Shown here: positions 1,127 through 37,291 of the stretch, piece after piece
Layout of the letters: each line of letters opens with the position of its first letter
Numbering within the stretch: the stretch's first letter is position 1
Assembly: GCF_943181405.1 (NCBI RefSeq)
Contig: NZ_CALPBY010000001.1
Location: forward strand, 372,001-436,000
DNA from: Cellulosimicrobium sp. Marseille-Q4280
GTDB taxonomy: Bacteria > Actinomycetota > Actinomycetes > Actinomycetales > Cellulomonadaceae
Direction: 5' to 3'
Length of the DNA: 64,000 nucleotides
Translations under genes and position numbers: made by a program
The notes under the pieces: generated by a model
Seen by the model: the letters and a program-made list of their open reading frames with translations, nothing else
What the model was told of the DNA's origin: nothing
The model's database searches: none

Positions 1127-1939
1127 GTGCTGCCAGCCTTCGTCCTCCCGTCCACCGGCGGGCTCGAGATCGACGGCCTGACGATCGCCCTCCTCGTGCT
1201 CGCCGCGCTCACGGCGGGATGGATCGACGCCGTGGTCGGCGGGGGCGGGCTGATCCAGCTCCCCGCGCTGCTGCTCGTCCCGGGCATCAGCCCGGTCCAG
1301 GCGCTCGCGACGAACAAGCTCGCGAGCATCATGGGCACGTCGGTCAGCGCGGCGACGTTCTACCGGCGCGTGGGTCCCGACCTGCGCACCGCCGGCCCGA
1401 TGGCGCTCGCCGCCCTGGTGGGCGCGATCGGGGGAGCGGCGCTCGCGTCCCGGATCCCGGCCGACCTGTTCACGCCGATCATCCTCGTCGTGCTCGTGGC
1501 CGTCGCCACCTACACGATCGCGAAGCCGAAGCTGGGCCACGCGACGAACCTGCGCTGGGAGGGCAACGGCCACCGGTGGGCCGCGGCGGGCATCGGGCTC
1601 GTCATCGGCACCTACGACGGCCTGCTCGGTCCTGGGACGGGCACCTTCTTCGTCATCTCGCTCGTGAGCATCCTGGGGTACGCGTTCCTGCCGGCGTCCG
1701 CGCTCGCGAAGATCGCGAACTTCGCGACCAATGCGGGCGCGCTGATCTTCTTCGTCCCGTACGGCGCGGTCCTGTGGGGGCTCGGCCTCCTGATGGGCGC
1801 GGCGAACCTGCTCGGCGCGTACGTCGGCGCGCGCATGGCGGTCGCGAAGGGGAGCGGGTTCGTCCGCGTCGTCTTCGTCGTCGTGGTCGGTGCGCTGATC
1901 CTCAAGCTCGGGTCCGACGTCGTGCGCGACCTGGTCTGA
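1127..1939 (+). CDS. TSUP (TauE/SafE) family membrane permease
   Basis: A 270-residue protein with about eight hydrophobic segments. It shows the two inverted family signatures: GWIDAVVGGGGLIQLPALL near residues 31-49, and GTYDGLLGPGTGTFF near 163-177. TSUP proteins export or import small anions such as sulfite, sulfoacetate or 2-oxo acids. The substrate of this copy cannot be read from sequence. The start is the GTG at 1127. No good Shine-Dalgarno sequence precedes it, but a weak TACCAC hexamer at 1115-1120 would fit a leaderless transcript. It is divergent from the ArsR pair and ends before a large hairpin shared with the ABC operon. Confidence 0.88.
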   Translation: MLPAFVLPSTGGLEIDGLTIALLVLAALTAGWIDAVVGGGGLIQLPALLLVPGISPVQALATNKLASIMGTSVSAATFYRRVGPDLRTAGPMALAALVGAIGGAALASRIPADLFTPIILVVLVAVATYTIAKPKLGHATNLRWEGNGHRWAAAGIGLVIGTYDGLLGPGTGTFFVISLVSILGYAFLPASALAKIANFATNAGALIFFVPYGAVLWGLGLLMGAANLLGAYVGARMAVAKGSGFVRVVFVVVVGALILKLGSDVVRDLV

Positions 1940-1969
1940 ACGCTCGCCCTCAGCGGCGGGTCGACTCGA

Positions 1970-2011
1970 GCGGGACGACGCGAGTGGGACGACGCGGGAG
2001 GGACGACGCGG
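1970..2011. repeat. Three tandem 14-bp repeats
   Basis: Three direct units (1970-1983, 1984-1997, 1998-2011) share the core GGGACGACGCG with small changes. They lie between the TSUP stop and the terminator hairpin and are outside any gene. Confidence 0.8.
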
Positions 2012-2077
2012 GCCCCGACCCGGCGGCCGTCGTGCAGCAGGGGCGTGCTGCACGTCAGGCGTGCCCGGGTCGGGGCC
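2011..2077. terminator. Nested bidirectional terminator hairpin
   Basis: The outer arms GGCCCCGACCCGG (2011-2023) and CCGGGTCGGGGCC (2065-2077) pair perfectly. Inside them CGTGCAGCA (2031-2039) and TGCTGCACG (2046-2054) form a second perfect 9-bp stem. The structure lies between the converging ends of the TSUP gene and the ABC transporter operon, so it can stop transcription from both sides. No T-run follows, as is usual in high-GC actinobacteria. Confidence 0.75.
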
Positions 2078-2128
2078 GTCGTCGGCGGGGGTGCTGAGCG
2101 GCCCCCCGCCTGCTCTCGCGCAGGGCGG

Positions 2129-3328
2129 TCACACCGAGCGGTGCGGCCATCCCGTCGCGATGGTCTCCTCGTCCTCCCCCTCGGTCGCGACCTGCGACGT
2201 GTCCACGCCGTCCGGCGCGGGGGAGTCCGGCAGCGGTGGCGCCACGCTCCGGTCGAGGAGATCGGGCCGGTCGCTCACGGTCGTCACGCCGCTCGTGACC
2301 TTGTAGCCCTTCCTGCGCGCCGCGCGGGCGCGCTCGCCCGCCGAGCGCAGGCGCGGGTTGACGTACTCGTCGATGCCGAAGTTGACGAGCGACAGCGCCA
2401 TGCCGAGCAGCGCGATGCACAGGCCGGCGGGGACGTACCACCACCAGTAGTCGGGGAACGCGCCGTTCTGCTGCGCCCAGAAGAGGATCGTGCCCCAGTT
2501 GAGGTTGGTGATGGGGATGACGCCGATGAACGCGAGCGTCGTCAGGCCCAGCACCGCGGCGGTCACCGTGCCGACGAAGCTCGACGCGATGATGGCCGTG
2601 AGGTTCGGGAGCATCTCGACGGCGATGATCCGGTGGATCGGCTCGCCGTTGGCCCGCGCCGCCTGGATGAAGTCGCGGTTGCGCAGCGACATGGTCTGGG
2701 CGCGCAGCACGCGACCGCCCCACGCCCAGCCCGTGATGGCGAGCACGGTCGAGATGAGGAGCAGGCTCGGGTTCTCGTACTGCGACGCGACGATGATCAT
2801 CAGCGGCAGGCCGGGGAGCACGAGGAAGACGTTCGTCAGCGCGGACAGCGACTCGGAGCGCCAGCCGGCCACGTACCCGGCCGTGACGCCGACCACCACG
2901 GCGACCAGCGTCGCGATGATGCCGGACACGAACCCCACCACGAGCACGCCGCGCGTGCCGTAGATGATCTGGCTGAGCACGTCCTCGCCCATGTGCGTCG
3001 TGCCGAGCCAGTGCTGGCCCGACGGCGGCTGCTTGAGCGCCGTGAAGTCCTTGTCGAGCGGCCCGTACGGCGCGATGAGGTCGCCGAACACGGCCAGCAC
3101 GGTGAAGAACCCGAGGATCGCGAGCCCGGTCAGCGACTTGCCGTTGCGGAACATCGCGAAGCCGCGCCCGAGGCGGGCTCTGCGCGAGCGGGCACGCGGG
3201 CTCGCCCCCGTGGGCGCCGGGGCGGACGACGTGGGACCGGTCGTCGTCCGGACGGGCGACGTCGGCCCGGAGGTCGGCGCGTCCGGCGCGGACGGCGTGC
3301 CGTTCGTGGAGGTCGAGGTGGACGTCAT
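2129..3328 (-). CDS. Opp/Dpp-type ABC transporter permease (DppC-like)
   Basis: This 399-residue inner-membrane permease has the BPD_transp_1 fold with about six membrane segments. The EAA-type loop reads NRDFIQAARANGEPIHRIIAVEMLPN. The N-terminal OppC_N region is preceded by about 55 residues rich in Thr, Ser, Pro and Arg. The C-terminal tail of about 70 hydrophilic residues after DEYVNPRLRSAGERARAAR is longer than usual. It is the last gene of the operon, 3 bp after the other permease. Family knowledge makes it one half of the heterodimeric channel of a peptide/oligosaccharide importer. Of the two permeases this one matches DppC/OppC, while the upstream one matches DppB/OppB. Confidence 0.92.
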   Translation of the reverse strand: MTSTSTSTNGTPSAPDAPTSGPTSPVRTTTGPTSSAPAPTGASPRARSRRARLGRGFAMFRNGKSLTGLAILGFFTVLAVFGDLIAPYGPLDKDFTALKQPPSGQHWLGTTHMGEDVLSQIIYGTRGVLVVGFVSGIIATLVAVVVGVTAGYVAGWRSESLSALTNVFLVLPGLPLMIIVASQYENPSLLLISTVLAITGWAWGGRVLRAQTMSLRNRDFIQAARANGEPIHRIIAVEMLPNLTAIIASSFVGTVTAAVLGLTTLAFIGVIPITNLNWGTILFWAQQNGAFPDYWWWYVPAGLCIALLGMALSLVNFGIDEYVNPRLRSAGERARAARRKGYKVTSGVTTVSDRPDLLDRSVAPPLPDSPAPDGVDTSQVATEGEDEETIATGWPHRSV

Positions 3329-6124: not shown

Positions 6125-7795
6125 TCACTCCACCGGCTCGAGCTCGGTGAGGATGAGCACGGCCGACGGCTGCGTCGGGTCCGCGTTGGTGTACGGGTCG
6201 GCGTCGCTCGGCCAGCCCGTGTAGTTCCGCGTGTTGAACTCGCTGATGAACGGGCGCGTGCCGATCGGCATCGCCGGGACGTCCTCGACGAAGATCTTCT
6301 GGACCTTCTCGATCGCGGCGGTGCGCGTGGCGTCGTCCGTCGCGTTGGCGAACTCGTCGAGCGCGGCGGTCGCCTCGGGGTTGTCGTAGCGGCCGAAGTT
6401 GTAGTCCGCGGCCTCCCCGACCGGCTTGAGCCAGCGGCCGTCCATCATGTCGCTGTACAGGTCGTACGGGGTCGCGCCCGTCTCGGTCCAGTGCAGGATC
6501 GCGTCGAAGTCGCCCGTGCCCTTCGCGGCCCACCAGGAGTCGGAGTCGGGCGTCGTGACGGTGGCCTCGACGCCGAGCGCCTTGACCGACTCGGCGATGA
6601 GGCTGATGCCCGTGACGTAGTCGTTCCAGCCCTGCGGGACGGTGAGCTCGAACGTGACGGGCTCGCCGTCCGGGTCGACGAGCGCCTCACCGTCGAGGGT
6701 GTAGCCGGCGTCCTCGAGGACCTTCTTGGCGCCGTCCACGTCGACCGCGTACTCCTCGCCCTGGAACTCCTCGGCGATGTACGGGTCGCCCGCGGGCTGG
6801 GGGAGGCCGGTGACCGAGGTGAGCAGGGGCACGCCGTCCTCGCGCGCGATCTGCTGGTGCTGCGTGCGGTCGACCACCATGTTCACCGCCTGGCGGAACG
6901 CCACGTCGCTGAACGGCTTCTTCGTCGTGTTGACGAACATCGCGTCGACGCCGAGGCCGGCGGGGGCCCAGTAGACGTTGTGGTCCGGGTCCTTCTCGAC
7001 GTAGGCCGACTGCACGTTGGGGAGGAACGCCTGCGCCCAGTCGGCGTCGCCGTTGGCGAGCGCGGTCGTCAGGGCGCTGTTGTCGTTGTACGACACGTAG
7101 TACAGCGTCGGGACCGCGAGCTCGCCGCCCCAGTAGTCGTCGCGCGCGGTGAGCTCGACGCTCTCCGTGCTGAAGCTCTCGAGCGTGTACGGGCCGGTGC
7201 CGACGGGCTCGGGGTTGACCTCCGTCGTCGGGTCGGCGACGCCCTCCCACACGTGCTTCGGCACGACGTAGCGGTGCAGCACCTTGTCCTGCTTCGCGTA
7301 CATCGAGCTCGTGAACGTCAGCGTGACGACGTCGCCGTCGACCGTGACGCTCTCGAGCGGCAGCGCCGCGGTGTTGAGCTCCGGCGTGTCGAGGAGGATC
7401 TGGTAGGAGAACGCGATGTCGTCGGCGGTGAGCGGCTCGCCGTCGTTCCACGTCACGTCGCTCTGCGTGGTGAGCTGGACGGACGTGTAGTCGTCGGACC
7501 ACACGATCTCCGACGCGAGCCACGGCTTGACCGGGTCGCTCGGGCTCACGACGTTGACGAAGCCCACTGGCTCGTAGATCGCGTTGACGTAGCCGAGCTT
7601 GAGCGCCGACGAGTCCCCGATCCACGGGTTGTTCGACTCGGTCGCGATCGCGCCGTCGGGCTTGGCGATCGTCAGGGCGGCGCCGCCGGCGCCGGTGGTC
7701 GTGTCGGTGTCGCCGTCGCCGGACGACGCCGAGCAGCCGGTGAGCACGAGGGCAGTCGCGACGCCGAGCGCGATCGCGGAGGCCTTCAACCTCAT
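6125..7795 (-). CDS. ABC transporter substrate-binding lipoprotein (SBP_bac_5)
   Basis: A 556-residue extracellular solute-binding protein of family 5, the peptide/nickel/oligosaccharide type. The signal peptide ends in the lipobox VLTGC, with Cys21 as the predicted lipidated residue, followed by a Ser/Asp/Thr-rich linker. The family core is clear: WNDGEPLTADDIAFSYQ, then GTGPYTLESF and FRQAVNMVVDRTQ. The start ATG at 7795 has a good GAAGGAGA Shine-Dalgarno sequence. The gene lies 86 bp downstream of a GH3 glycosidase on the same strand. Family 5 binding proteins are used for cello- and other beta-glucan oligosaccharides as well as peptides, so a sugar ligand is a reasonable inference from context. 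Confidence 0.93.
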   Translation of the reverse strand: MRLKASAIALGVATALVLTGCSASSGDGDTDTTTGAGGAALTIAKPDGAIATESNNPWIGDSSALKLGYVNAIYEPVGFVNVVSPSDPVKPWLASEIVWSDDYTSVQLTTQSDVTWNDGEPLTADDIAFSYQILLDTPELNTAALPLESVTVDGDVVTLTFTSSMYAKQDKVLHRYVVPKHVWEGVADPTTEVNPEPVGTGPYTLESFSTESVELTARDDYWGGELAVPTLYYVSYNDNSALTTALANGDADWAQAFLPNVQSAYVEKDPDHNVYWAPAGLGVDAMFVNTTKKPFSDVAFRQAVNMVVDRTQHQQIAREDGVPLLTSVTGLPQPAGDPYIAEEFQGEEYAVDVDGAKKVLEDAGYTLDGEALVDPDGEPVTFELTVPQGWNDYVTGISLIAESVKALGVEATVTTPDSDSWWAAKGTGDFDAILHWTETGATPYDLYSDMMDGRWLKPVGEAADYNFGRYDNPEATAALDEFANATDDATRTAAIEKVQKIFVEDVPAMPIGTRPFISEFNTRNYTGWPSDADPYTNADPTQPSAVLILTELEPVE

Positions 7796-7881
7796 GAGTC
7801 TCTCCTTCGAGAACGTCGGCCCGGCCGGTGCCGGGACGAAAGGGGGCGGTGCAGGGGTGGTGCCGCGGTCCGGTGGTGGTG

Positions 7882-10374
7882 CTACTCCCGTCCGGTGGTG
7901 CTCTCCAGCGCCCGGACCGCGGTGTCCAGGCGGAGGTCGTCGATCGAGCGCCCGACCCGGAGCCGGTACGTCCCGGCGGGCAGGTCCCAGCGCTCGCTGT
8001 CGGTGTCCCACACCTCGAACCTCCGGCGCGGGACGGTCACGGTGACGTGGGCGGACCCGCCCGCCGCGACGTCGACGGAGGCGAACCCGCCGAGCCAGCG
8101 CGACGGTCGGTCGCGGTGCGCGACCGGGGCCTCGAGGTAGACCTGGACGGTCTCGCGACCGTGTCGGGTCCCGGTGTTGGTGACACGGACGACGACGGCG
8201 GCGTCGCCGTCGGGCGTCCAGGTCGCGGGTGCGACCTCGTCGTAGGACCAGGTGGTCCAGCCGAGGCCGTGCCCGAAGGGCGCCGCGGGCACGCGGCCCG
8301 AGCGCACCCAGGCGCGGTGGCCGACGTGCACGCCGTCGGTGTACTCGACCACGCCACCGGCGGGGACGGCGTGGGGGACCGGGACGTCGGCCGCGTCCGC
8401 GGGGAGCGTCCACGGCAGGCGTCCGGTCGGCTCGACGGCGCCCGCGAGGACGTCGGCGATCGAGTGCCCGGCCTCCTGGCCCGGGAACCAGACCCACAGC
8501 ACGGTGCGCGCGCGGTCGAGCCACGGGAGGAGGACGGGGGCGCCGGCGTTGACCACGACGACCGCGTCCGGGTCGGCGTCGAGCACGCGCTCGACGAGCT
8601 CGTCCTGACGGCCGGGCAGCGCGAGCGAGGTCCGGTCCCAGCCCTCCGACTCGACCTCCTCGTTCGTCCCGACGACGACGACGGTGAGGTCCGCCGCGCG
8701 GGCGGCGTCGACCGCCTCGGCGATCTCCTGCTCGACGGACGGGGCCGGGACGCGGTGCCGCAGCTCGGCGCGCACCATGTTGCCGTAGCCCTGTGCGCGG
8801 GTGACGAGGAGCGACGCGGTGACGCGGACGCAGCGCGGGGCGTCGACGTGCACGAGCGCCGGGACGCCGACCGGGTTGTTGATCGAGGAGTCGAGGATGA
8901 CCTCGACGCCCGAGCGGTGCGGGTCGTGCGCGACGACGACGCCGTCGACCTCGATCGTGTGACCGGGCACGGTGCCGACCTCGAGCGTGTGGTCGCCCGG
9001 CTCGTCGAGCAGGACGTCCGCCTCGAGCACGACGGTGTCGACCGTGTCCGGCAGGTCGCGCAGGAAGCCGTCCCAGTGCGCGAGGACCTCCTTGCGCAAC
9101 GTCGCGCCCTCGGCGTCGAGCCACGTGACCTGGAGGGCCTGGTCGGGGAGGGACCGTGCGGTCAGGTCGAGGCGCGGTGCCAGACGGCGCGCGTCGCCCC
9201 CGCGGGACACGGTGAGCGACGCGTCGGGCCAGCGGGCGGCGAGTCCCTCGGCCGGGGTGACGACGTGCGTCGGGACGACCGTCGAGCTGCCCCCGCCGAG
9301 CACGTGCGGACGCACCGCGTTGGGGCCGGCGAGCGCGATCGAGCGCGGCGGGGGTCGGTCCCAGACGGGGTTCTCGGCGTCGGACCGCAGGACGACCGTG
9401 CCGCGCGCGGCGGTGCGGCGCACGAGCTCGCGCAGGTCGCCGTCGTACGTCAGGGGACGGGCCGGCTCGTCGAGCGCGCCCACCCGGCGGGCGAGGAGGA
9501 GGAGGCGCGCGACCTTGTCGTCGATCTCCGCCTCGGGCACGAGGCCGTCCTCGACGGCGCGCACGAGCCGGTCCTCCCAGGGCCCGCCGGGACCCGGCAT
9601 GACGAGGTCGAGCCCGCCGTTCGCCGACTCCGCGGTGGTGTGCGTCGCGACCCAGTCCGAGACGACCGCGCCGTCGAACCCGAGCTCGCGCTTGAGGACG
9701 TCGGTGACGAGGTGCCGGTGGGCCGTCATCGGCGCCGTCTCGGTGTCGTCGTCCACCTGGTTGTACGCCGCCATGACCGACCACGCGCCGGCGTCGACCG
9801 CCGCCTCGAACGGGGCGAGGTAGACCTCGCGCAGCGTGCGCGGGTCGACGTGCGCGACGTAGCTCGTGCGGTCCGTCTCGGAGTCGTTGGCGACGTAGTG
9901 CTTGACGCACGCCGCGACGCCCTCGTCCTGGAGGCCGCGCACGACACCCGTGCCGATCTCCGCCGTGAGGAACGGGTCCTCGGCGTAGCACTCGAAGTGC
10001 CGGCCGCCCACGGGTGTGCGCTGGATGTTGACCTGGGGGGCGAGCACGACGTCGACGCCGTGGGTGCGCGCCTCGCGGGCGAAGGCCCGGCCGGTCTCGT
10101 GCGCGACGTCGCGGTCCCACGTCGCGCTGATCGCGCTGGGGGAGGGGAACAGGATCGAGGTCTCGCCCTCGACCTCGCTCGTGCCGCGGACGCCGACGGG
10201 GCCGTCGGACAGGACGACCGGGCGCAGCGCCAGTCCGTCGTGGCCGTGCGTGCGCCACATCGACTGCCCGGTGAGGAGCCGGACCTTCTCGCGGAGCGGC
10301 AGACGCTGCGCACGGGTGCGCAGGTCGTCGAGCTCCGGGGAGGCGTCGGCTCCCGGGCGGGACTGCGGTGTCAC
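7882..10374 (-). CDS. Glycoside hydrolase family 3 beta-glucosidase-like enzyme
   Basis: An 830-residue GH3 enzyme with no signal peptide, so it is predicted to be cytoplasmic. The N-terminal (beta/alpha)8 domain carries LSDGPVGVRG (55-64), VKHYVAND (157-164) and the nucleophile loop GAVVSDW with Asp240. A PA14-like insertion (about residues 390-520) interrupts the second domain, which resumes with GTNEEVESEGWDRTSLALP and NAGAPVLLPW. A fibronectin III-like domain closes the protein. The length and domain order match actinobacterial PA14-containing beta-glucosidases. The GTG at 10374 has a GAGGAG ribosome-binding site. Its promoter contains an operator at 10409-10432, and the downstream ABC importer suggests that it hydrolyses imported beta-linked oligosaccharides. 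Exact specificity is unknown. Confidence 0.92.
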   Translation of the reverse strand: MTPQSRPGADASPELDDLRTRAQRLPLREKVRLLTGQSMWRTHGHDGLALRPVVLSDGPVGVRGTSEVEGETSILFPSPSAISATWDRDVAHETGRAFAREARTHGVDVVLAPQVNIQRTPVGGRHFECYAEDPFLTAEIGTGVVRGLQDEGVAACVKHYVANDSETDRTSYVAHVDPRTLREVYLAPFEAAVDAGAWSVMAAYNQVDDDTETAPMTAHRHLVTDVLKRELGFDGAVVSDWVATHTTAESANGGLDLVMPGPGGPWEDRLVRAVEDGLVPEAEIDDKVARLLLLARRVGALDEPARPLTYDGDLRELVRRTAARGTVVLRSDAENPVWDRPPPRSIALAGPNAVRPHVLGGGSSTVVPTHVVTPAEGLAARWPDASLTVSRGGDARRLAPRLDLTARSLPDQALQVTWLDAEGATLRKEVLAHWDGFLRDLPDTVDTVVLEADVLLDEPGDHTLEVGTVPGHTIEVDGVVVAHDPHRSGVEVILDSSINNPVGVPALVHVDAPRCVRVTASLLVTRAQGYGNMVRAELRHRVPAPSVEQEIAEAVDAARAADLTVVVVGTNEEVESEGWDRTSLALPGRQDELVERVLDADPDAVVVVNAGAPVLLPWLDRARTVLWVWFPGQEAGHSIADVLAGAVEPTGRLPWTLPADAADVPVPHAVPAGGVVEYTDGVHVGHRAWVRSGRVPAAPFGHGLGWTTWSYDEVAPATWTPDGDAAVVVRVTNTGTRHGRETVQVYLEAPVAHRDRPSRWLGGFASVDVAAGGSAHVTVTVPRRRFEVWDTDSERWDLPAGTYRLRVGRSIDDLRLDTAVRALESTTGRE

Positions 10375-29401: not shown

Positions 29402-30544
29402 GTGACCAGCACGACCGCCCAGCCCGCGAACGTCGGCCTCGATGCCGATACCGTCGACCCCGTGGACAGCCCCGAGCTGCAGGCCCGCACGAGCGACCTG
29501 CGCGCCCGTGCGCTCGACGCGCTCCCCGCCCCGCGGGCGCTGCTCGCCGACCTGCCGCTCGGCGCGACGCGCAGCGACCTCGTCACGACGTCGCGCCGCG
29601 AGGTCCGCGACGTCCTCGCCGGCGACGACGACCGCCTCCTCGTGATCGTCGGCCCGTGCTCCGTGCACGACCCGCAGGCCGCGCTCGAGTACGCGGGGCG
29701 CCTCGCCGCCGTCGCGCACGAGCTGGCCGACGACCTCGCGGTCGTCATGCGCGTGTACTTCGAGAAGCCGCGCACGACGGTCGGGTGGAAGGGCCTCATC
29801 AACGACCCGCACCTCGACGGCTCGCACGACGTGCACCACGGCTTGCGCCTCGCGCGCGAGGTCCTGCTCGGTGTGCTCGACGCGGGCGTCCCCGCGGCGT
29901 GCGAGTTCCTCGAGCCGACGAGCCCGCAGTACATCGCCGACGCCGTCTCCTGGGGCGCGATCGGGGCGCGCAACGCGGAGTCGCAGGTGCACCGCCAGCT
30001 CGCGTCGGGCCTGTCGATGCCGGTCGGCTTCAAGAACGCGACGGACGGCGACGTGCAGATCGCCGTCGACGGCTGCATCACCGCCGCGAGCGAGCACACG
30101 TTCTTCGGCATGGACTCGCTCGGCCGTGCGGCCGCGGTCGAGACCGCGGGCAACCCGGACTGCCACGTCATCCTGCGCGGCGGTCGCTCGGGCCCCAACT
30201 ACGGGGTCGACGACGTCGCGGCGGCCCTCGCGGTGGCTCGCACCTCGGGCCTCGGCGGGGTCGTGGAGCACGGGCTCGTCGTGGACGCGTCGCACGGCAA
30301 CTCGGGCAAGAGCCACGTGCGGCAGGCGGAGGTCGTGCGCGAGGTCGCGGCGCGCCTCGCCGAGGGCGAGCAGGGCATCACCGGCCTGATGATGGAGAGC
30401 TTCCTCGTCGCGGGCGCGCAGAAGCCCGCACCCTCGGGGCTGGTGTACGGGCAGTCGGTCACCGACGCGTGCATCGACTGGGACACGACGGCGGACCTCC
30501 TGCGCGAGCTCGCCGGCGCGGTCCGGGCGCGTCGCGAGGCCTGA
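29402..30544 (+). CDS. aroG: 3-deoxy-7-phosphoheptulonate (DAHP) synthase, type I
   Basis: This enzyme condenses phosphoenolpyruvate and erythrose 4-phosphate, the first step of aromatic amino acid synthesis. The 380-residue protein has the AroFGH-type core: VGPCSVHDPQAALEYA, YFEKPRTTVGWKGLINDP, GFKNATDG and DASHGNSGKSH. The N-terminal 60 residues are an extension of the type found in feedback-regulated type I alpha enzymes. GTG 29402 was chosen because it is the closest start to the conserved region; the longer frame upstream runs through the leader and terminator. Expression is probably controlled by attenuation by Trp and perhaps Tyr. Confidence 0.93.
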   Translation: MTSTTAQPANVGLDADTVDPVDSPELQARTSDLRARALDALPAPRALLADLPLGATRSDLVTTSRREVRDVLAGDDDRLLVIVGPCSVHDPQAALEYAGRLAAVAHELADDLAVVMRVYFEKPRTTVGWKGLINDPHLDGSHDVHHGLRLAREVLLGVLDAGVPAACEFLEPTSPQYIADAVSWGAIGARNAESQVHRQLASGLSMPVGFKNATDGDVQIAVDGCITAASEHTFFGMDSLGRAAAVETAGNPDCHVILRGGRSGPNYGVDDVAAALAVARTSGLGGVVEHGLVVDASHGNSGKSHVRQAEVVREVAARLAEGEQGITGLMMESFLVAGAQKPAPSGLVYGQSVTDACIDWDTTADLLRELAGAVRARREA

Positions 30545-30560
30545 CGCGCGGGACCTCGAC

Positions 30561-30587
30561 CCATCCGGGAGCCGTTCCGCGCCGAAC
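30561..30587 (+). promoter_or_regulatory. SigK-type promoter of sigK-rskA
   Basis: CCATCC (30561-30566), a 15-bp spacer and CCGAAC (30582-30587). The extended -35 region GACCCATCCGG is identical in the fasciclin and dipZ promoters at 33014-32988 and 33030-33056. The boxes resemble the mycobacterial SigK consensus (CCATCC...CCGAAT). Its position about 50-70 bp before sigK implies autoregulation. Confidence 0.8.
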
Positions 30588-30634
30588 CCTGGTCGTCCCG
30601 GGAGGTCCGGGACCGTGCACGCGTGAGGGGACCA

Positions 30635-31234
30635 GTGCTGGGGCAGACTGTCCGGGTGCCACCCTCCGTGACGACGAGCTCGTCGGGTGCCGTCGACGCC
30701 GCGCTGTCCGCGTGCGCCGGCGGCGACCCGGACGCGTTCGCGCCCGTGTACGACGCGCTCGCGCCCGTCGCGTACGGCACCTGCCTGGGTGTCCTGCGCG
30801 ACCCGGACCACGCGGCGGAGGTGATGCAGGAGGTGATGGTCGAGGTGTGGCAGACGGCGACGCGGTTCGACGCCTCTCGCGGCTCCGCGCGCACGTGGGT
30901 AGCGACCCTCGCGCGTCGCCGCGCCGTCGACCGGGTGCGGGCCGAGCAGTCGCGCCGCGACCGTGACCAGCGCGAGCTCGACGCCGCGATGGCGGCGGCG
31001 CCCCGGGACGTCGTCGCGGAGGACGTCGAACGCAGCCTGGAGGGCGCGGCCGTGCGGCGGTGCCTCGAGTCGCTCACCGCGACCCAGCGCGAGGCCGTGG
31101 TCGACGCCTACTACGGCGGGTACACCTACCGTGAGGTGGCCGAGCGTCTGGACGCGGCGCTGCCGACCGTGAAGTCCCGCATCCGCGACGGGCTGACCCG
31201 ACTTCGTGACTGCCTGGGGGTGCGCCGTGGCTGA
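30635..31234 (+). CDS. sigK: ECF RNA polymerase sigma factor SigK
   Basis: A sigma factor of about 199 residues with region 2 (AAEVMQEVMVEVWQTATRFD, RGSARTWVATLARRRAVDRVR) and region 4 (TATQREAVVDAYYGGYTYREVAERL, PTVKSRIRDGLTRLR). This is very like mycobacterial SigK, including the SAR-W-TLAHRRAVDRVR-like segment and AYYGG-YTY. The start is uncertain: GTG 30635 has a GAGGGG site 4 bp before it and is used here; GTG 30623 and GTG 30656 are in frame. Its stop overlaps the anti-sigma gene by 8 bp. The promoter at 30561 is its own type. In Mycobacterium SigK drives mpt70/mpt83 and dipZ, and homologues of the latter two lie just downstream. Confidence 0.88.
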   Translation: MLGQTVRVPPSVTTSSSGAVDAALSACAGGDPDAFAPVYDALAPVAYGTCLGVLRDPDHAAEVMQEVMVEVWQTATRFDASRGSARTWVATLARRRAVDRVRAEQSRRDRDQRELDAAMAAAPRDVVAEDVERSLEGAAVRRCLESLTATQREAVVDAYYGGYTYREVAERLDAALPTVKSRIRDGLTRLRDCLGVRRG

Positions 31235-32054
31235 CGAGTCCTTCGGGCCGGGGGGCGCGGGGCCCGACGGCCGGCGCGAGGACGACGGCCGGGGCGTCGT
31301 GTGGGACCTCCTGCCCGCGTACGCGCTGGACGCCGTCGACGACCTCGACCGCCGCGCGGTCGAGCGGCTGCTCGCCGCGGACCCCGCCGCACAGCAGGCG
31401 CTCGACGAGTACCGCGACGTCGTCGCGGCGTTCGCCGTCGAGCACGCCCCGCCGGTGTCGGTGCGCGACGCCGTGCTCGCCCGGGTGGCGACGACGCCGC
31501 AGGTCCCGCTCCCCGGGCAGCCCGCGGCCGGGCAGCCTCTCGGGCAGCCCGTCACGGCGGAGACCCGGGCGAGCGGCGAGGCGCGCGCCGGCGCGGCCTC
31601 GACCCGCGCGCGCCTGCGCTGGGGCCTCGTCGCGGCGGCCGCGGCGGCCGTCGTGGCGGTCGCCGTGCCGACGACCGTGGCCGTGCGTGCGACGCAGGAG
31701 CAGTCGCGCCTGCAGGCGCAGGCGGACGCGGTGGCGCAGATGCTCGCGGACCCGACGGCCACGATCGTGCGCGGCGAGGTCGCAGGTGGTGGCGAGGCGT
31801 CGGTCCTCGTGGCGGGCGACGACTACCTCTTCCGCGCGTCGGAGCTGCCCGGGGCGGGCGACGACCAGGACTACCAGCTCTGGGTGGTCGGCGACGACGG
31901 GGGCGTGACCTCCGCCGGCGTGCTCGCCGAGCAGGACGGCACGGTCGAGCAGCTCGTGCAGGACGCGCCGGGGGTCGGCGTGGCCGTCACGGTCGAGCCG
32001 GAGGGCGGGTCGGAGCAGCCGACGACCGACCCGATCGTCGCGCTCGTCACCTGA
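31227..32054 (+). CDS. rskA: Anti-sigma-K factor RskA
   Basis: A 275-residue membrane anti-sigma factor. The N-terminal cytoplasmic domain (VVWDLLPAYALDAVDDLDRRAVERLLAADPAAQQALDEYRD, about 24-65) binds the sigma factor and lacks the zinc-finger cysteines, as in RskA. A Pro/Gln/Ala linker leads to one membrane helix (LRWGLVAAAAAAVVAVAVPTTVAV, about 131-154). The extracytoplasmic RskA domain includes DDQDYQLWVVGDDGGVTSAGVL. Regulated proteolysis of this protein should free SigK. The GTG at 31227 overlaps sigK by 8 bp, so the two are coupled. A perfect hairpin ends the unit. Confidence 0.92.
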   Translation: MADESFGPGGAGPDGRREDDGRGVVWDLLPAYALDAVDDLDRRAVERLLAADPAAQQALDEYRDVVAAFAVEHAPPVSVRDAVLARVATTPQVPLPGQPAAGQPLGQPVTAETRASGEARAGAASTRARLRWGLVAAAAAAVVAVAVPTTVAVRATQEQSRLQAQADAVAQMLADPTATIVRGEVAGGGEASVLVAGDDYLFRASELPGAGDDQDYQLWVVGDDGGVTSAGVLAEQDGTVEQLVQDAPGVGVAVTVEPEGGSEQPTTDPIVALVT

Positions 32055-32179
32055 GGTCGGCGAGGCGCGCCTCCAGGTCCCGGGCCTCGGCGTCGCGCGG
32101 TGACGACGGACGTGCGCGCCCAGGTCGGCGCCCCGGCGAGGCCGGTCCGTCGCAGAGGGTCGCCCGCGGTGGCGCCGCG

Positions 32180-32226
32180 ACGACGAACGGCCCGGCCGCG
32201 AGGAGCGGGGCCGGGCCGTTCGTCGT
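32180..32226. terminator. Perfect 18-bp bidirectional terminator
   Basis: ACGACGAACGGCCCGGCC (32180-32197) is the exact reverse complement of GGCCGGGCCGTTCGTCGT (32209-32226), with an 11-nt loop. It separates the converging rskA and fasciclin genes and ends in a TTCGTCGT/ACGACGAA side that supplies a weak U-rich tract on both strands. The rest of 32055-32235 shows no gene. Confidence 0.85.
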
Positions 32227-32235
32227 GGTCGGAGG

Positions 32236-32937
32236 TCACATGGTCGGCATGAGCACCGAGTCGACGAGGTAGACGGTGGCGTTCTGCGTCATGACGCCGC
32301 CGCAGACGACCGTGGCGTCGTTGACCATGAGCTCGTCGCCCTCGCCCGTCACCTCGACGGTGCCGCCCTGGACGGTCGTCTGCTCGCCGACGACCTGGTC
32401 GGGCGTGAGCTGCCCGGGCACCACGTGGTAGGTGAGGATCGACGTGAGCATGTCGGAGTCGGTCTTCAGCGTCTCGAGGGTCGCGGCGTCGATCTTCGCG
32501 AAGGCGTCGTCGACGGGCGCGAACACCGTGAACTCGTCGCCGTTGAGCGTGTCGACAAGGTCGACCTCAGGGTTGAGCTCGCCCGACACGGCGGAGACGA
32601 GCGTCGTGAGCAGCGGGTTGTTCGACGCGGCGACCGCGACCGGGTCGGTCGACATGCCGGTGATCGAGCCGGCGCCGTCGGGCACCTGCTCGGCGTAGGC
32701 CTCGCAGCCCGCGCCGACGAGGTTCGCTGCGGGGTCCATCGCCATGTCGTCGGACGACTCCGTGTCCTCGGCCATGTCCTCGGACTCGGCGGAGTCGTCC
32801 GTCATGGCGTCCTCGCTCGCCTGCGACTCGGTGGTCTCAGCACCGGAGCCCGAGTCCGAGCTGCAGGCGGACAGGCCGAGGACGGCGAGGGTGGCGACGC
32901 CGGCCACGGCGTACGACGTGCGGGTTCGAGCGTTCAT
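32236..32937 (-). CDS. MPT83-like fasciclin-domain lipoprotein
   Basis: A 233-residue secreted protein. The signal peptide ends in a lipobox LSAC, and the mature part begins with a Ser/Glu/Asp/Met-rich acidic linker ([18 protein letters not shown]). A single FAS1 domain follows (about 100-233) with [15 protein letters not shown] and [11 protein letters not shown]. This is the architecture of mycobacterial MPT83, with the closely related MPT70 lacking the lipid anchor. The cysteine pair GAGCEAY and VVCGG also corresponds to those proteins. ATG 32937 has a GAGGAGAG site. It is transcribed from a SigK-type promoter divergent from dipZ. The role may be adhesion or envelope redox homeostasis. Confidence 0.9.
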
Positions 32938-32987
32938 CGGTCTCTCCTCGGGTCGTGCCCCGCGGTCTGCGGGGCGTCTCGAGGGGT

Positions 32988-33014
32988 GTTCGGAGCCCTC
33001 GACCGACCGGATGG
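32988..33014 (-). promoter_or_regulatory. SigK-type promoter of the fasciclin gene
   Basis: On the minus strand CCATCC (33014-33009), 15 bp, then CCGAAC (32993-32988), with the extended GACCCATCCGG. The leader to the ATG at 32937 is about 40 nt. Confidence 0.82.
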
Positions 33015-33029
33015 GTCCGGTTCCACGAC

Positions 33030-33056
33030 CCATCCGGACGAGGCGGCGTGCCGAAC
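33030..33056 (+). promoter_or_regulatory. SigK-type promoter of dipZ
   Basis: CCATCC (33030-33035), 15 bp, then CCGAAC (33051-33056). The ATG of dipZ at 33064 is 7 bp after the -10 box, so the transcript would be leaderless. Its -35 box lies only 15 bp from the -35 box of the divergent fasciclin promoter. Confidence 0.82.
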
Positions 33057-33063
33057 CGTCGGC

Positions 33064-35022
33064 ATGGAGACGCTGATCGTCATCGGACTGCTCGGGGGCC
33101 TCATCACGGGTATCTCGCCGTGCATCCTGCCCATGCTCCCCGTGATCTTCTTCGCGGGCGGCGTGCAGGGCGCCCGCCCACGGGACGACGGCGCGAGCTC
33201 GCCGCCGACCGTCTCGCCCGCGCTCTTCGCCGGGGCACCGAGGGCCGTCACCGTCGGCGGTGGTGCGCGACGCTCCGCCGGCGCGGGGACCGTCACGCTC
33301 GACGTCTCCCCGGACCCGGCGCGGGGCGAGCGGGTCGCCGCGTCGGGCGGCGCGTCGGTGGGCGACGCGTCAGGCAGCGAGGCTGCGGGAGGCCGCCGCC
33401 GGGCGCGGGAGCGGAAGCGCTCGTGGCGCCCGTACCTCGTCATCGCGGGCCTCGTGCTGAGCTTCAGCGTCTTCACGCTGCTGGGCTCCCTGCTCCTCAC
33501 CGCGCTCGGGCTCCCGCAGGACCTGCTCCGGTGGGCCGGCATCGTGCTGCTCGTCCTCATCGGCATCGGCATGATCGTCCCGCGCGTCGAGGAGGTGCTC
33601 GAGCGGCCGTTCCAGCGCATCGCCGCGCTCGGCGCACGGCGCGGGGCGGCGCGGCAGGACCGCGGAGCGTTCGTGCTCGGCCTCGGGCTCGGCGTGCTCT
33701 ACGTACCGTGCGCCGGTCCGGTGCTCGCGGCGATCACGGTCGCCGGGGCGACGGGCGACATCGGCCCGGGTACGGTCGCGCTGACGGTGTCCTTCGCCGT
33801 CGGCGCGGCGATCCCGCTCCTGGTCTTCGCGCTCGCCGGCCGCCGTGTCGCCGAGCGTGTCAAGGGCTTCCAGCGCCACACCCGGGGCATCCGCGTCACG
33901 GGCGGCATCGTCATGATCGCGCTCGCCGGAGCGCTCGCGCTGAACCTGCCCGCAGCGCTGCAGCGCGCGCTGCCCGACTACACCGGTGCGCTCCAGCAGC
34001 GCGTCGACGAGAACGAGACGGTCCAGGAGGCGCTCGACCTCGGCGGCCTCGTCACGGACGAGAACCGCGAGCTGTCGAACTGCTCGAACGGCGCGTCCGA
34101 GCTCGAGGACTGCGGCCCGGCGCCCGAGATCCGCGGCATCGACACGTGGCTCAACACGCCGGGCGGCGAGGCGCTCGCGCTCGACGAGCTGCGCGGCAAG
34201 GTCGTGCTCGTCGACTTCTGGACGTACTCGTGCATCAACTGCCAGCGCGCGATCCCGCACGTCAACGCGTGGTACGAGCAGTACCGGGACGTGGGCGAGG
34301 GGTTCGAGGTCATCGGCGTGCACACGCCGGAGTTCGCGTTCGAGCGCGAGACGCGCAACGTCGTCGCGGGCGCGGAGGACCTGGGCATCACCTACCCGGT
34401 GGCGCAGGACAACTCCTACGCGACGTGGACCGCGTACCGGAACCGCTACTGGCCCGCGCAGTACCTCGTCGACGCCGACGGGACCGTGCGGCACATCCGC
34501 TTCGGCGAGGGCGGCTACGAGGAGACGGAGAACCTCGTGCGCGAGCTCCTCGCCGACGCGAACCCGGGCGTCGACCTGCCCGAGCCGACCTCGGTGGGGG
34601 ACTCCACACCGCAGGCCGCGACGACGCCCGAGACGTACTTCTCCATCAAGCGCGTCGTGAACTACTCCGGCGAGCCGCGGTACGCCGCGGGAGAGCAGGA
34701 GTTCGCGCTCACCGACGACCAGCCGCAGGACACGTTCTCGCTCGGCGGCACGTGGGACGTCGACTTCCAGGGCGCCACGGCGGTGTCCGACGGCGCGCAG
34801 GTCCGTCTCGCGTACCGGTCCACCGACGTGTTCGCCGTCCTGGGCGGCGAGGGGACCGTCACGGCGCGCGTCACGGCGGGCGGGCGGACGACGGAGCGGG
34901 AGATCGACGTGTCGGGGAACCCGACGCTCTATCCCGTGCTCGAGGGCGACGGCCCCACCGAGGGGACCGTCGAGCTCGACGTGCCGCCGGGGGTCCAGGT
35001 GTTCACCGCGACGTTCGGCTGA
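33064..35022 (+). CDS. dipZ: DipZ: CcdA-like transporter fused to a thioredoxin domain
   Basis: A 652-residue membrane protein. The CcdA/DsbD-like region has [11 protein letters not shown] near residue 20 and YVPCAGPV near 215, the paired reactive cysteines that carry electrons across the membrane. A thioredoxin-like domain follows, with [11 protein letters not shown] (cysteines near 388 and 391), as in mycobacterial DipZ. A C-terminal beta-rich domain (about 530-652) completes the family architecture. Between the first and second helices lies a loop of about 85 Gly/Ala/Arg/Ser-rich residues, unusual in length. The protein is expected to supply reductant to secreted cysteine proteins, possibly the two-cysteine fasciclin lipoprotein next to it. 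Confidence 0.93.
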
Positions 35023-35025
35023 GCC

Positions 35026-35045
35026 GGCCGGTCCGCGGACCGGCC
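35026..35045 (+). terminator. Perfect palindromic terminator after dipZ
   Basis: GGCCGGTCCGCGGACCGGCC is a perfect 20-bp palindrome starting 3 bp after the dipZ stop. A second hairpin, CGCGCGGCGGC (35056-35066) with GCCGCCGCGCG (35089-35099), follows at once, so termination is probably double. No gene is seen between here and 35275. Confidence 0.7.
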
Positions 35046-35275
35046 CCAGGACGGGCGCGCGGCGGCTGATGTCGAGAACAGGCGTACGGCCGCCGCGCGT
35101 CCTTGCTCGCTGCCCGACCGGCCGAGACCTCCGGGACGGCGCATCCCGTGTCCCGGACGAGGCTGTACAGTCCGCTCACCCGCTGTGACATCGCTGGAGA
35201 TGCGCTGTGCCGGCGTCGCTGCCGCGGGCCCCGCGCCGAGCACGACGCGGGACGACGGTGTCTGACAGGAGAACG

Positions 35276-37291
35276 ATGAGCGGACGGGTGTGGCGACGGG
35301 TGACGGCGGTGGTCGTCGGAGCGGCGTTGCTGGCGGGAGGGCTCGCCGGAACGGCCTCGGCGACGACGGCGGACCCGGGGTCCGAGGCGGACCAGGCTGG
35401 GGTGGACGTGGTGGACGTGGTGACCGTCGGGGGTGTGACGACCCCGAGGACCGTGATCCGGTCCGCGGCGCCGCGGACCACCGCAGGCTTCGCCTTCCGT
35501 GGGCCGCGCGTGATCGGCGGGTGCACCGCCGGTGCCCTGTGCCAGGCGCTGGGTGAGACCCGGGTCGCCTGGGACTTCTCGTCCGGACTGACGGAGGCCG
35601 CGGTCGAGGGCAACCGGATCGTGCGGGCGACGCTCGAGGGGACGGCGAGGCAGAGCGCGGCCTGCCGCACGGCGCCGGTCACGGTGCACGCGGTCGGTGG
35701 GATCGACGCGTCGACCAGCTGGTCCACGCACGCGCCGACCTGGGGCGACGTCGTCACGGGTGCCGTGGCCGAGGGCCGGTGCGACCGCTGGGGAGCGGTC
35801 ACGTGGGACGTGACGGACGCGGTCCGGCAGGGGCTGGACGATCGGCGTGCCGTCGCGCTCGGGCTCTCGGTACCGGCCGGGAGCGGCTCGGCGCTGGTCG
35901 GGCCGCAGGCCTCGCTGCGGGTCGAGATCGGCCCGCCCCCGGGCCCGGCCGCGATCGCGCGAGGGACGAGCGATCCGCCCGGCCCGTGCGCGGTGGGCGA
36001 CGACCGCCCGTCGATCCGCTCGGTGACGCCGTCCCTCGTGGCGGACGTCGAAGGCGTGGGGAACCTCCGTGCGCGTTTCGCGGTGTCGGACGTCGAGGAC
36101 GGGGTCGAGCTCTGGTCCGCAGAGACCATGCCGCAGATGGCGGGCGGCGGCCCGGTCGTTGTCACTGTCCCGGCCGGTGTCATGGTCGAAGGTCGTGCCT
36201 ACTCGTGGGACGTCCGCGCGGCGACCCCCACCGGGCCGTGGAGCGCTCCGACGTCGTGCGAGGTCGTCCCGGATCTCACACCGCCGGTCGTCACGCCCGT
36301 CGCCACGCCCGTCGAGGGCGAGCCGGCCGTCTACCGCGAGGGCCTCATCTCGGGCGGTGTGGGCATCCCGGGGGCCTTCGTCCTCTCGTCCGACGAGGCC
36401 GACGTGAGGATCGCGTACTCGTTCTCCAGCCCGGACGCCCTGGTGAACACCGTCGCTCCGGGGACGCGGGTCGACTTCGCCCCGTCCGCCAACGGTCCCC
36501 ACACCCTGTACATGCGGGCCGTGGACGGCGCGGGTTGGGTCGGCCCGACCGGGGAGTACCGCTTCCAGGTCGCCAGGACCGCGCCGATGCGTTGGTCGTT
36601 CGACGAAGGAACGGGACTCGAGGCCCGGAACGCCGCAGGAACCGGCGCGCTCACGCTGAGCGGACCGGACCTGTGGGGCGACGGCCTGCACGCCGACTTC
36701 GCGGCCGATCCCACCGATCGCGCGCTCGTCCTCCGGGGCGGCGAGTCGGCAGCGTGGTCGCAGGTTCCTCTCGTCGCGACCGACAGGAGCTACTCGGTCA
36801 GCGCCACCGTCCGGGCGGACGACGCCGGGACGACCCGGGTCGCCGTGAGCCAGGCCGGTGCGCGCACCAGCGCCTTCGCGCTCGGTCAGCGCGAGGACGC
36901 CGCGTGCGGCACGCCGTCGGGCTCGTGCTGGGCGTTCTGGACCGCCGGGACCGACGTCGCGGACCCCGAGCTGGCGGTCGCGCTCTCGGGCGTCGAGGTC
37001 CGGCCCGGCTCGTGGGTCCGTCTCACCGGGATCCACGACGCGCGGACTCAGGAGAACCGGCTGTACGTGTGCGAGATCGGCACGGTCGACGAGCCCGCCT
37101 TCGGAGACGTCGTGCTCGCCGGGACCGCCTCGGGCGCGGGGACGGGATGGGCGTCGGGCGGGGCTCTCCAACTGGGCCGCGGCGGGGTCGCCGGCGCGTG
37201 GAGCGACCCGTGGGCAGGCACCGTCGACCGGCTCTCCGTCGCGGACGGGGTTCTGACGGAGAGCGACATGTTCCGCGAGTGCTACTCCTGA
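35276..37291 (+). CDS. Secreted LamG/concanavalin-like domain protein
   Basis: A 671-residue exported protein. The signal peptide (WRRVTAVVVGAALLAGGLAGTASA) ends near residue 30. The middle part includes a DNRLRE-like region with paired cysteines (GGCTAGALCQ, SAACRTAPVTVH) and fibronectin-like beta stretches. The C-terminal 200 residues form a LamG jelly roll starting MRWSFDEGTGLEARNAAGTGALTLSG and ending near AGTVDRLSVADGVLTESDMFRECYS. Such proteins are frequent in actinobacteria and probably bind sugars or cell-surface polymers. ATG 35276 has an AGGAGA site. Codon use is a little more varied than in the flanking genes. No wall-anchor or membrane tail is seen, so it is released. Confidence 0.88.
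   Translation: MSGRVWRRVTAVVVGAALLAGGLAGTASATTADPGSEADQAGVDVVDVVTVGGVTTPRTVIRSAAPRTTAGFAFRGPRVIGGCTAGALCQALGETRVAWDFSSGLTEAAVEGNRIVRATLEGTARQSAACRTAPVTVHAVGGIDASTSWSTHAPTWGDVVTGAVAEGRCDRWGAVTWDVTDAVRQGLDDRRAVALGLSVPAGSGSALVGPQASLRVEIGPPPGPAAIARGTSDPPGPCAVGDDRPSIRSVTPSLVADVEGVGNLRARFAVSDVEDGVELWSAETMPQMAGGGPVVVTVPAGVMVEGRAYSWDVRAATPTGPWSAPTSCEVVPDLTPPVVTPVATPVEGEPAVYREGLISGGVGIPGAFVLSSDEADVRIAYSFSSPDALVNTVAPGTRVDFAPSANGPHTLYMRAVDGAGWVGPTGEYRFQVARTAPMRWSFDEGTGLEARNAAGTGALTLSGPDLWGDGLHADFAADPTDRALVLRGGESAAWSQVPLVATDRSYSVSATVRADDAGTTRVAVSQAGARTSAFALGQREDAACGTPSGSCWAFWTAGTDVADPELAVALSGVEVRPGSWVRLTGIHDARTQENRLYVCEIGTVDEPAFGDVVLAGTASGAGTGWASGGALQLGRGGVAGAWSDPWAGTVDRLSVADGVLTESDMFRECYS

Follow-up and report, generated by a model that had tools for sequence, protein, structure and literature searches.

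A putative compact SigK–RskA regulon with a predicted leaderless dipZ mRNA in Cellulosimicrobium

The extracytoplasmic function (ECF) sigma factor SigK controls MPT70 and MPT83, well-known antigens of the tuberculosis group, and a SigK–RskA regulon with fasciclin and dipZ genes is already known from mycobacteria. Here, a 64,000-nucleotide stretch of Cellulosimicrobium sp. Marseille-Q4280 (the window; contig NZ_CALPBY010000001.1, positions 372,001 to 436,000) is described, which comes from a genome of 4.86 Mb in 12 contigs. Very probably, this genome has a compact SigK–RskA regulon that includes the sigK operon, the fasciclin gene fas and dipZ, all in the window, and an unlinked gene for a DUF4383 membrane protein, with dipZ expressed from a leaderless mRNA. 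The reading draws on sequence, homology, conservation, co-occurrence and spacing, from which SigK binding, the start points, leaderless translation, the signal and the function are inferred. The genes sigK, rskA, fas and dipZ lie within one 4.5-kb stretch, and the features on which the argument depends are the following.

30561-30587, plus strand: SigK-type promoter of sigK-rskA (-35 box CCATCC at 30561-30566, -10 box CCGAAC at 30582-30587)
30623-31234, plus strand: sigK, ECF sigma factor gene (tentative start codon: GTG at 30623)
31227-32054, plus strand: rskA, anti-sigma factor gene (overlaps the end of sigK by 8 nt)
32236-32937, minus strand: fas, gene for an MPT70/MPT83-like fasciclin-domain lipoprotein (PF02469)
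32988-33014, minus strand: SigK-type promoter of fas (-10 box and ATG separated by 50 nt)
33030-33056, plus strand: SigK-type promoter of dipZ (-10 box at 33051-33056)
33064-35022, plus strand: dipZ (DsbD-type membrane domain, thioredoxin-like domain and C-terminal Thioredoxin_10)

As the original prediction had it, the motif CCATCC-N15-CCGAAC is present before sigK, fas and dipZ with a spacer of exactly 15 nt, and the extended -35 block GACCCATCCGG is common to all three sites. The promoters had also been called identical, which is true of both boxes and of the spacer length; the spacer sequences differ. The mycobacterial SigK promoter has the form CCATCC/CCGAAT, so that its -10 box ends in T and the one found here in C. 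Three exact sites per 64 kb compare with a mean of 0.15 in shuffled sequence, and none of 100 shuffles reached three. Across the whole genome, CCATCC-N12..20-CCGAAC has seven matches (four with N15, two with N14 and one with N17) versus two for the reversed pattern that served as control; with N15 fixed, four exact sites and no control matches are found. The motif is thus not scattered over many unrelated places, an outcome that the original prediction had named as damaging. The suggestion that hits might lie solely before the three genes of the locus was not borne out, as the fourth exact N15 site lies 54 nt upstream of the unlinked DUF4383 gene.

Nineteen further N15 sites in the same genome deviate from the motif by one mismatch. 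Of these, 16 overlap long open frames rich in G and C at third codon positions, and none fits the extended consensus of the family, AC-CCATCC-G...GC[TGA]-CCGAAC-C; the search for extra regulon genes through these 19 sites, which did not follow other spacers or two mismatches, gave none that was convincing. That these near matches mostly look like chance lends some colour to the idea that the three sites are themselves accidents of GC-rich DNA. The shuffles, the conservation of the sites in close relatives and across genera, and a count of 154 exact N15 sites against 5 of the reversed pattern in 81 genomes of the family reduce the probability of this explanation to almost nothing, and a chance origin was rejected.

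The assignment of the sigma factor is based on the curated model NF007228 of NCBIfam, which scores 233.1 bits against a cut-off of 226. The best solved relative is the SigK structure 4nqw (E = 4e-42), and the nearest named relatives, among the best 80 of 391 SigK-like loci, are from Cellulosimicrobium strains (85–89% identity). Residues C147 and C197 align to both cysteines of 4nqw, and both redox cysteines are kept in 31 of 31 loci (L015 and L155 being from one genome). The product of rskA matches PF10099 (RskA_C) with 84.8 bits and the anti-sigma factor model NF052375 with 146.3 bits against a cut-off of 100.

Conservation of the sites was followed in the window and the 16 closest of these 80 loci (L008–L023, at least 69% identity), with at most one mismatch and a spacer of 15–16 nt allowed. 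Such a site is present upstream of sigK in all 17 loci (spacer 15; 16 in L017), fas in all 15 loci that have it (spacer 15; 16 in L010, L012 and L018) and dipZ in all 14 that hold it. Furthermore, the motif tracks sigK through the family. The 41 genomes with sigK (at least 60% identity) contain 130 of the 154 exact sites, with at least one in 39 of the 41; the 37 genomes without sigK contain 19, with at least one in 15 (Fisher p = 2e-7); the three genomes with weaker SigK matches (49–56%) contain 5. The gene dipZ follows the sigma factor as well: 29 of the 30 family genomes that have it also have sigK at 60% identity or more, and the other one (G022) has a 49% SigK match. Taken together, the curated model, the sites in close relatives and the co-occurrence give good support to the view that these are SigK-type promoters, from which we infer autoregulation and direct control of the neighbouring genes by SigK.

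Orthologues of the DUF4383 gene were drawn from 41 genomes searched. Among the five closest (the gene itself included; at least 73% identity), four have an exact site and one has a one-mismatch site with spacer 16, so this fourth site is conserved at the close orthologues, and the notion that a single locus reveals the entire regulon had to be given up. Two of 15 more distant homologues (36–46% identity) have an exact site and two a one-mismatch site. At one DUF4383 locus (L005), a gene assigned by eye to an ECF-like sigma factor lies divergently from the DUF4383 gene (1714-2454, plus strand).

For 151 exact sites at 120 loci of the family, the genes that follow were then sorted into clusters; cluster sizes are approximate, and the automatic choice of open reading frame sometimes fell on the wrong frame (the rows of L005 and L207 were reassigned to DUF4383, and those of L139 at 4328 and of L152 to sites before sigK). 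The largest groups are fas with 28 sites, dipZ with 20, sigK with 19 (21 with the two wrong-frame rows), a cluster of CHRD-type secreted proteins with 16 and DUF4383 with 9 (11 with the two wrong-frame rows). The remaining rows comprise a mixed cluster of nine, including two sigK rows, and 48 that stand singly or in groups of two or three. The dinucleotide AC occurs directly 5' of the -35 box in 76 of the 94 sites of the named groups versus 15 of the 57 others. The single member of the CHRD-type cluster that was compared with Pfam matched CHRD; in 12 of the 16 loci with such genes (L153, L159 and 14 more) the SigK-type site is 46–54 nt upstream. A search for a CHRD-type homologue in the Cellulosimicrobium genome itself found none, and the query was matched in three of five congeners, one of which (G007) is the query's own genome. 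SigK-type sites were also seen before the gene of a two-repeat lipoprotein of about 430 residues in four genera (L129, L131, L133, L149, L162 and L229); the protein from L131, the one scanned, had no Pfam match. No report placing DUF4383 or CHRD proteins in a SigK regulon was among the literature matches listed.

Several observations weigh against a SigK regulon of this form. The N-terminal domain of RskA matches PF22618 (RskA_N) with 24.2 bits (E = 4e-5), below the Pfam cut-off of 27. Among the 64 more distant SigK-like loci (at most 61% identity) of the best 80, just 10 have CCATCC-N13..18-CCGAA[CT] anywhere in the locus; because of this, the motif code is to be regarded as a property of the close SigK group and not of all SigK-like factors. 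An exact site occurs in 15 of the 37 genomes without sigK, and two genomes, G030 and G076, have sigK and no exact site, G030 having a one-mismatch dipZ site at the usual position. Finally, 11 of the 15 distant DUF4383 homologues have no site (8) or a chance-like two-mismatch N14 site (3). The sites in genomes without sigK, along with the ECF-like gene beside DUF4383, could mean that the promoters are real and are read mainly by another or by several ECF sigma factors, SigK being just a neighbour. This we consider very unlikely: the motif goes together with sigK throughout the 81 genomes, stands before sigK itself at all 17 loci and agrees with the mycobacterial SigK code, and one study describes SigK sites as highly conserved among Actinobacteria and SigK orthologues as sharing promoter use, in that they recognise the mpt70 promoter (PMC7509140).

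The least expected result of the analysis concerns the position of the dipZ promoter. For 33 loci of the family (those of 30 genomes together with L010, L016 and L021; ATG starts only), exactly 7 nt separate the end of the -10 box from the dipZ ATG in every case, and over spacings of 0–119 nt the site at 7 nt, with spacer 15, beats all others by at least two matches in each of the 33. These sites have no mismatch in 21 loci, one in 11 and two in one, and the 7 nt themselves are not conserved, with 24 different 7-mers in the set. The SPCxLP motif of the first membrane helix follows the ATG by 17 codons in 29 loci and by 19 codons in the other 4, so that there is hardly space for a later start. 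As ECF polymerases initiate roughly 5–8 nt past the -10 box, transcription of dipZ would be expected to start on its first codon or beside it. With the spacing as its single basis, the dipZ mRNA of the window is therefore predicted to be leaderless, its 5' end coinciding with the ATG at 33064 or adjoining it. The same arrangement was sought in another family of the class, probably the one that GTDB defines for the mycobacteria, where dipZ is present in 17 of 121 genomes (18 loci; spacings of 0–149 nt and spacers of 14–16 nt scanned). The best site is at spacing 7 with spacer 15 in 10 of the 18 loci, and these are ten of the eleven highest-scoring ones; they have one to four mismatches, the -35 box is often CAAGCC or CCAGCC, and one start codon is GTG. 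On the other side of the balance, 8 of the 18 loci, L299 among them, lack the 7-nt site.

Intergenic regions are short at the locus, and the 7-nt spacing might be a mere by-product of compact packing, with the working dipZ transcript starting further upstream; in L011, L155, L156 and L157, where fas lies upstream on the dipZ strand, read-through is possible. Packing does not readily account for a spacing that is invariant in 33 of 33 loci while the 7-mers vary, that recurs in 10 loci of another family, and that is kept where the fas and dipZ promoters are about 650–730 nt apart (L010, L012, L014, L016 and L018–L020). The fas spacing, by contrast, varies: the distance from the -10 box to the start codon is 48–55 nt in 26 of 29 loci and 61, 62 and 143 nt in the remaining three, and hence 48–62 nt in 28 of 29. 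A leadered dipZ transcript is accordingly judged improbable, and we retain the prediction of a leaderless one.

When this leaderless pattern was sought throughout the phylum, 10 of 296 genomes had a match and the control none; dipZ followed at the window's own site only, the other genes were mixed, and several of these matches are probably due to chance. At L237 (G368), a minus-strand site at 1501, CCATCC-N15-CCGAAT, is followed 7 nt on by the ATG of a gene for a FAD-dependent amine-oxidase-like protein, assigned by eye, which resembles the gene that opens the mycobacterial sigK operon and is possibly another leaderless SigK gene. SigK-type sites were also noted before genes for membrane-anchored molybdopterin oxidoreductases at L239 (G294), L209 and L213 (Oxidored_molyb in L209, by eye in the others), and the ATG at L239 is likewise 7 nt after the site. 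The literature searched contained no report of a leaderless dipZ.

Both effector genes encode products with clear structural relatives. DipZ is full-length, with DsbD_TM, AhpC-TSA and Thioredoxin_10 domains, and matches the solved DipZ structures 5cyy (E = 7e-116) and 2hyx (E = 1e-115); by domain content it is an envelope electron-transfer protein. The product of fas matches MPT70 (1nyo, E = 3e-59), the two cysteines of MPT70 being aligned with fas cysteines, and its translation contains the lipobox LSAC. A ribosome-binding-like GAGGAG lies upstream of the fas start in the window, and fas appears to have a conventional leader of about 40–45 nt. The possibility that the -35 boxes of the divergent fas and dipZ genes keep a fixed distance was entertained and dropped, as their positions vary among loci. 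In L010, L012, L014, L016, L018 and L019 (Isoptericola and Paraoerskovia), fas and dipZ are separated by an additional gene of some 210 codons, situated immediately before the dipZ promoter, and most of its products end like RFGFGSTPRRPSLTxVxTTVRG. In the Oerskovia loci L021 and L022, a 494-codon gene for a secreted, wall-anchored-looking protein lies between rskA and fas (about 7560-9070).

In the proposed scheme, RskA, as a membrane anti-sigma factor, would hold SigK until its release, and the freed SigK would direct RNA polymerase to promoters of the form [GC]AC-CCATCC-G-N14-CCGAAC, thereby activating its own operon, fas and dipZ at the locus, and the unlinked DUF4383 membrane protein gene. 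The first codon of the leaderless dipZ mRNA would be fixed by the SigK start point, and fas would be translated from a conventional leader. DipZ would act as an envelope thiol-disulfide exchanger. The likely input is thiol redox state, because both redox cysteines of SigK are conserved, and the output would be envelope disulfide handling. According to the parts of the sources available, a disulfide between cysteines 133 and 183 of the M. tuberculosis SigK, to which C147 and C197 are equivalent, tunes RskA binding (PMC7509140), DipZ may have a part in the formation of the MPT70/83 disulfides and the stimuli of SigK are obscure (PMC9861118). Since the SigK cysteines are kept, fas keeps two matching cysteines and DipZ has the domain content and proposed disulfide role described, a redox-responsive envelope regulon is the likeliest interpretation; in it, the signal, the release of SigK and the outcome are all deductions.

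A DAHP (3-deoxy-D-arabinoheptulosonate 7-phosphate) synthase gene (29435-30544) lies upstream of sigK, followed by sigK, rskA, the convergent fas and then dipZ, divergent from fas. Where rskA and fas converge, a strong inverted repeat (32180-32226; 21-nt arms, 95% complementary, 5-nt loop) is probably a terminator, and no structured RNA was matched by Rfam within 30400-35300. After dipZ comes a gene (35276-37291, plus strand) whose large product looks secreted and has a Laminin_G_3 domain; upstream of this gene, the motif scan of the window found no exact SigK-type site.

More broadly, it seems probable that in Actinobacteria the dipZ message is leaderless, with SigK placing its start codon, a coupling kept in two families despite sequence drift, and that the ancestral SigK regulon was an envelope thiol/redox module. 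Besides the DUF4383 membrane protein, this module would take in a secreted CHRD protein in some genera, and it would be common to environmental bacteria and mycobacteria. Environmental relatives with few promoters, three of four at one place, offer a setting both simple and safe for seeking the SigK signal; the invariant dipZ spacing gives a sharp, testable prediction on leaderless translation of a redox enzyme, and a regulatory framework is provided for DUF4383 and CHRD proteins. Isoptericola, Oerskovia and Cellulosimicrobium are environmental genera. Full-length dipZ is present in 30 of the 81 family genomes and in Isoptericola, Oerskovia and Cellulosimicrobium loci, so it is not limited to pathogens, and the statement in the available part of PMC3078919 that in Actinobacteria it is confined to them does not hold here. 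The literature searched, which did not cover the founding comparative study (Veyrier 2008), contained no report of SigK in Cellulosimicrobium; the query for SigK with CCATCC returned unrelated literature only, that for SigK, fasciclin and anti-sigma factor in Actinobacteria returned none, and the matches listed for ECF19, promoter and fasciclin were all unrelated.

Among known systems, the SigK–RskA regulon of M. tuberculosis (sigK-rskA; mpt83-dipZ-mpt70) is shared in its parts, namely SigK, RskA, an MPT70/83-like fasciclin protein and full-length DipZ. It differs in layout: here a single 4.5-kb stretch holds all four genes, one more site lies at the unlinked DUF4383 gene, and the locus has a single fasciclin gene, divergent from dipZ. 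The cskE-sigK-dipZ island of Corynebacterium pseudotuberculosis likewise brings together an anti-sigma factor, sigK and dipZ, and the accessible part of its description mentions no fasciclin gene and reports no promoter spacing (PMC3078919). In Yersinia enterocolitica, a SigK–RskA pair likewise drives an mpt83 promoter; that host is Gram-negative and, in the part of the study available, its factor is assigned to ECF19 and that of M. tuberculosis to ECF18 (PMC7509140).

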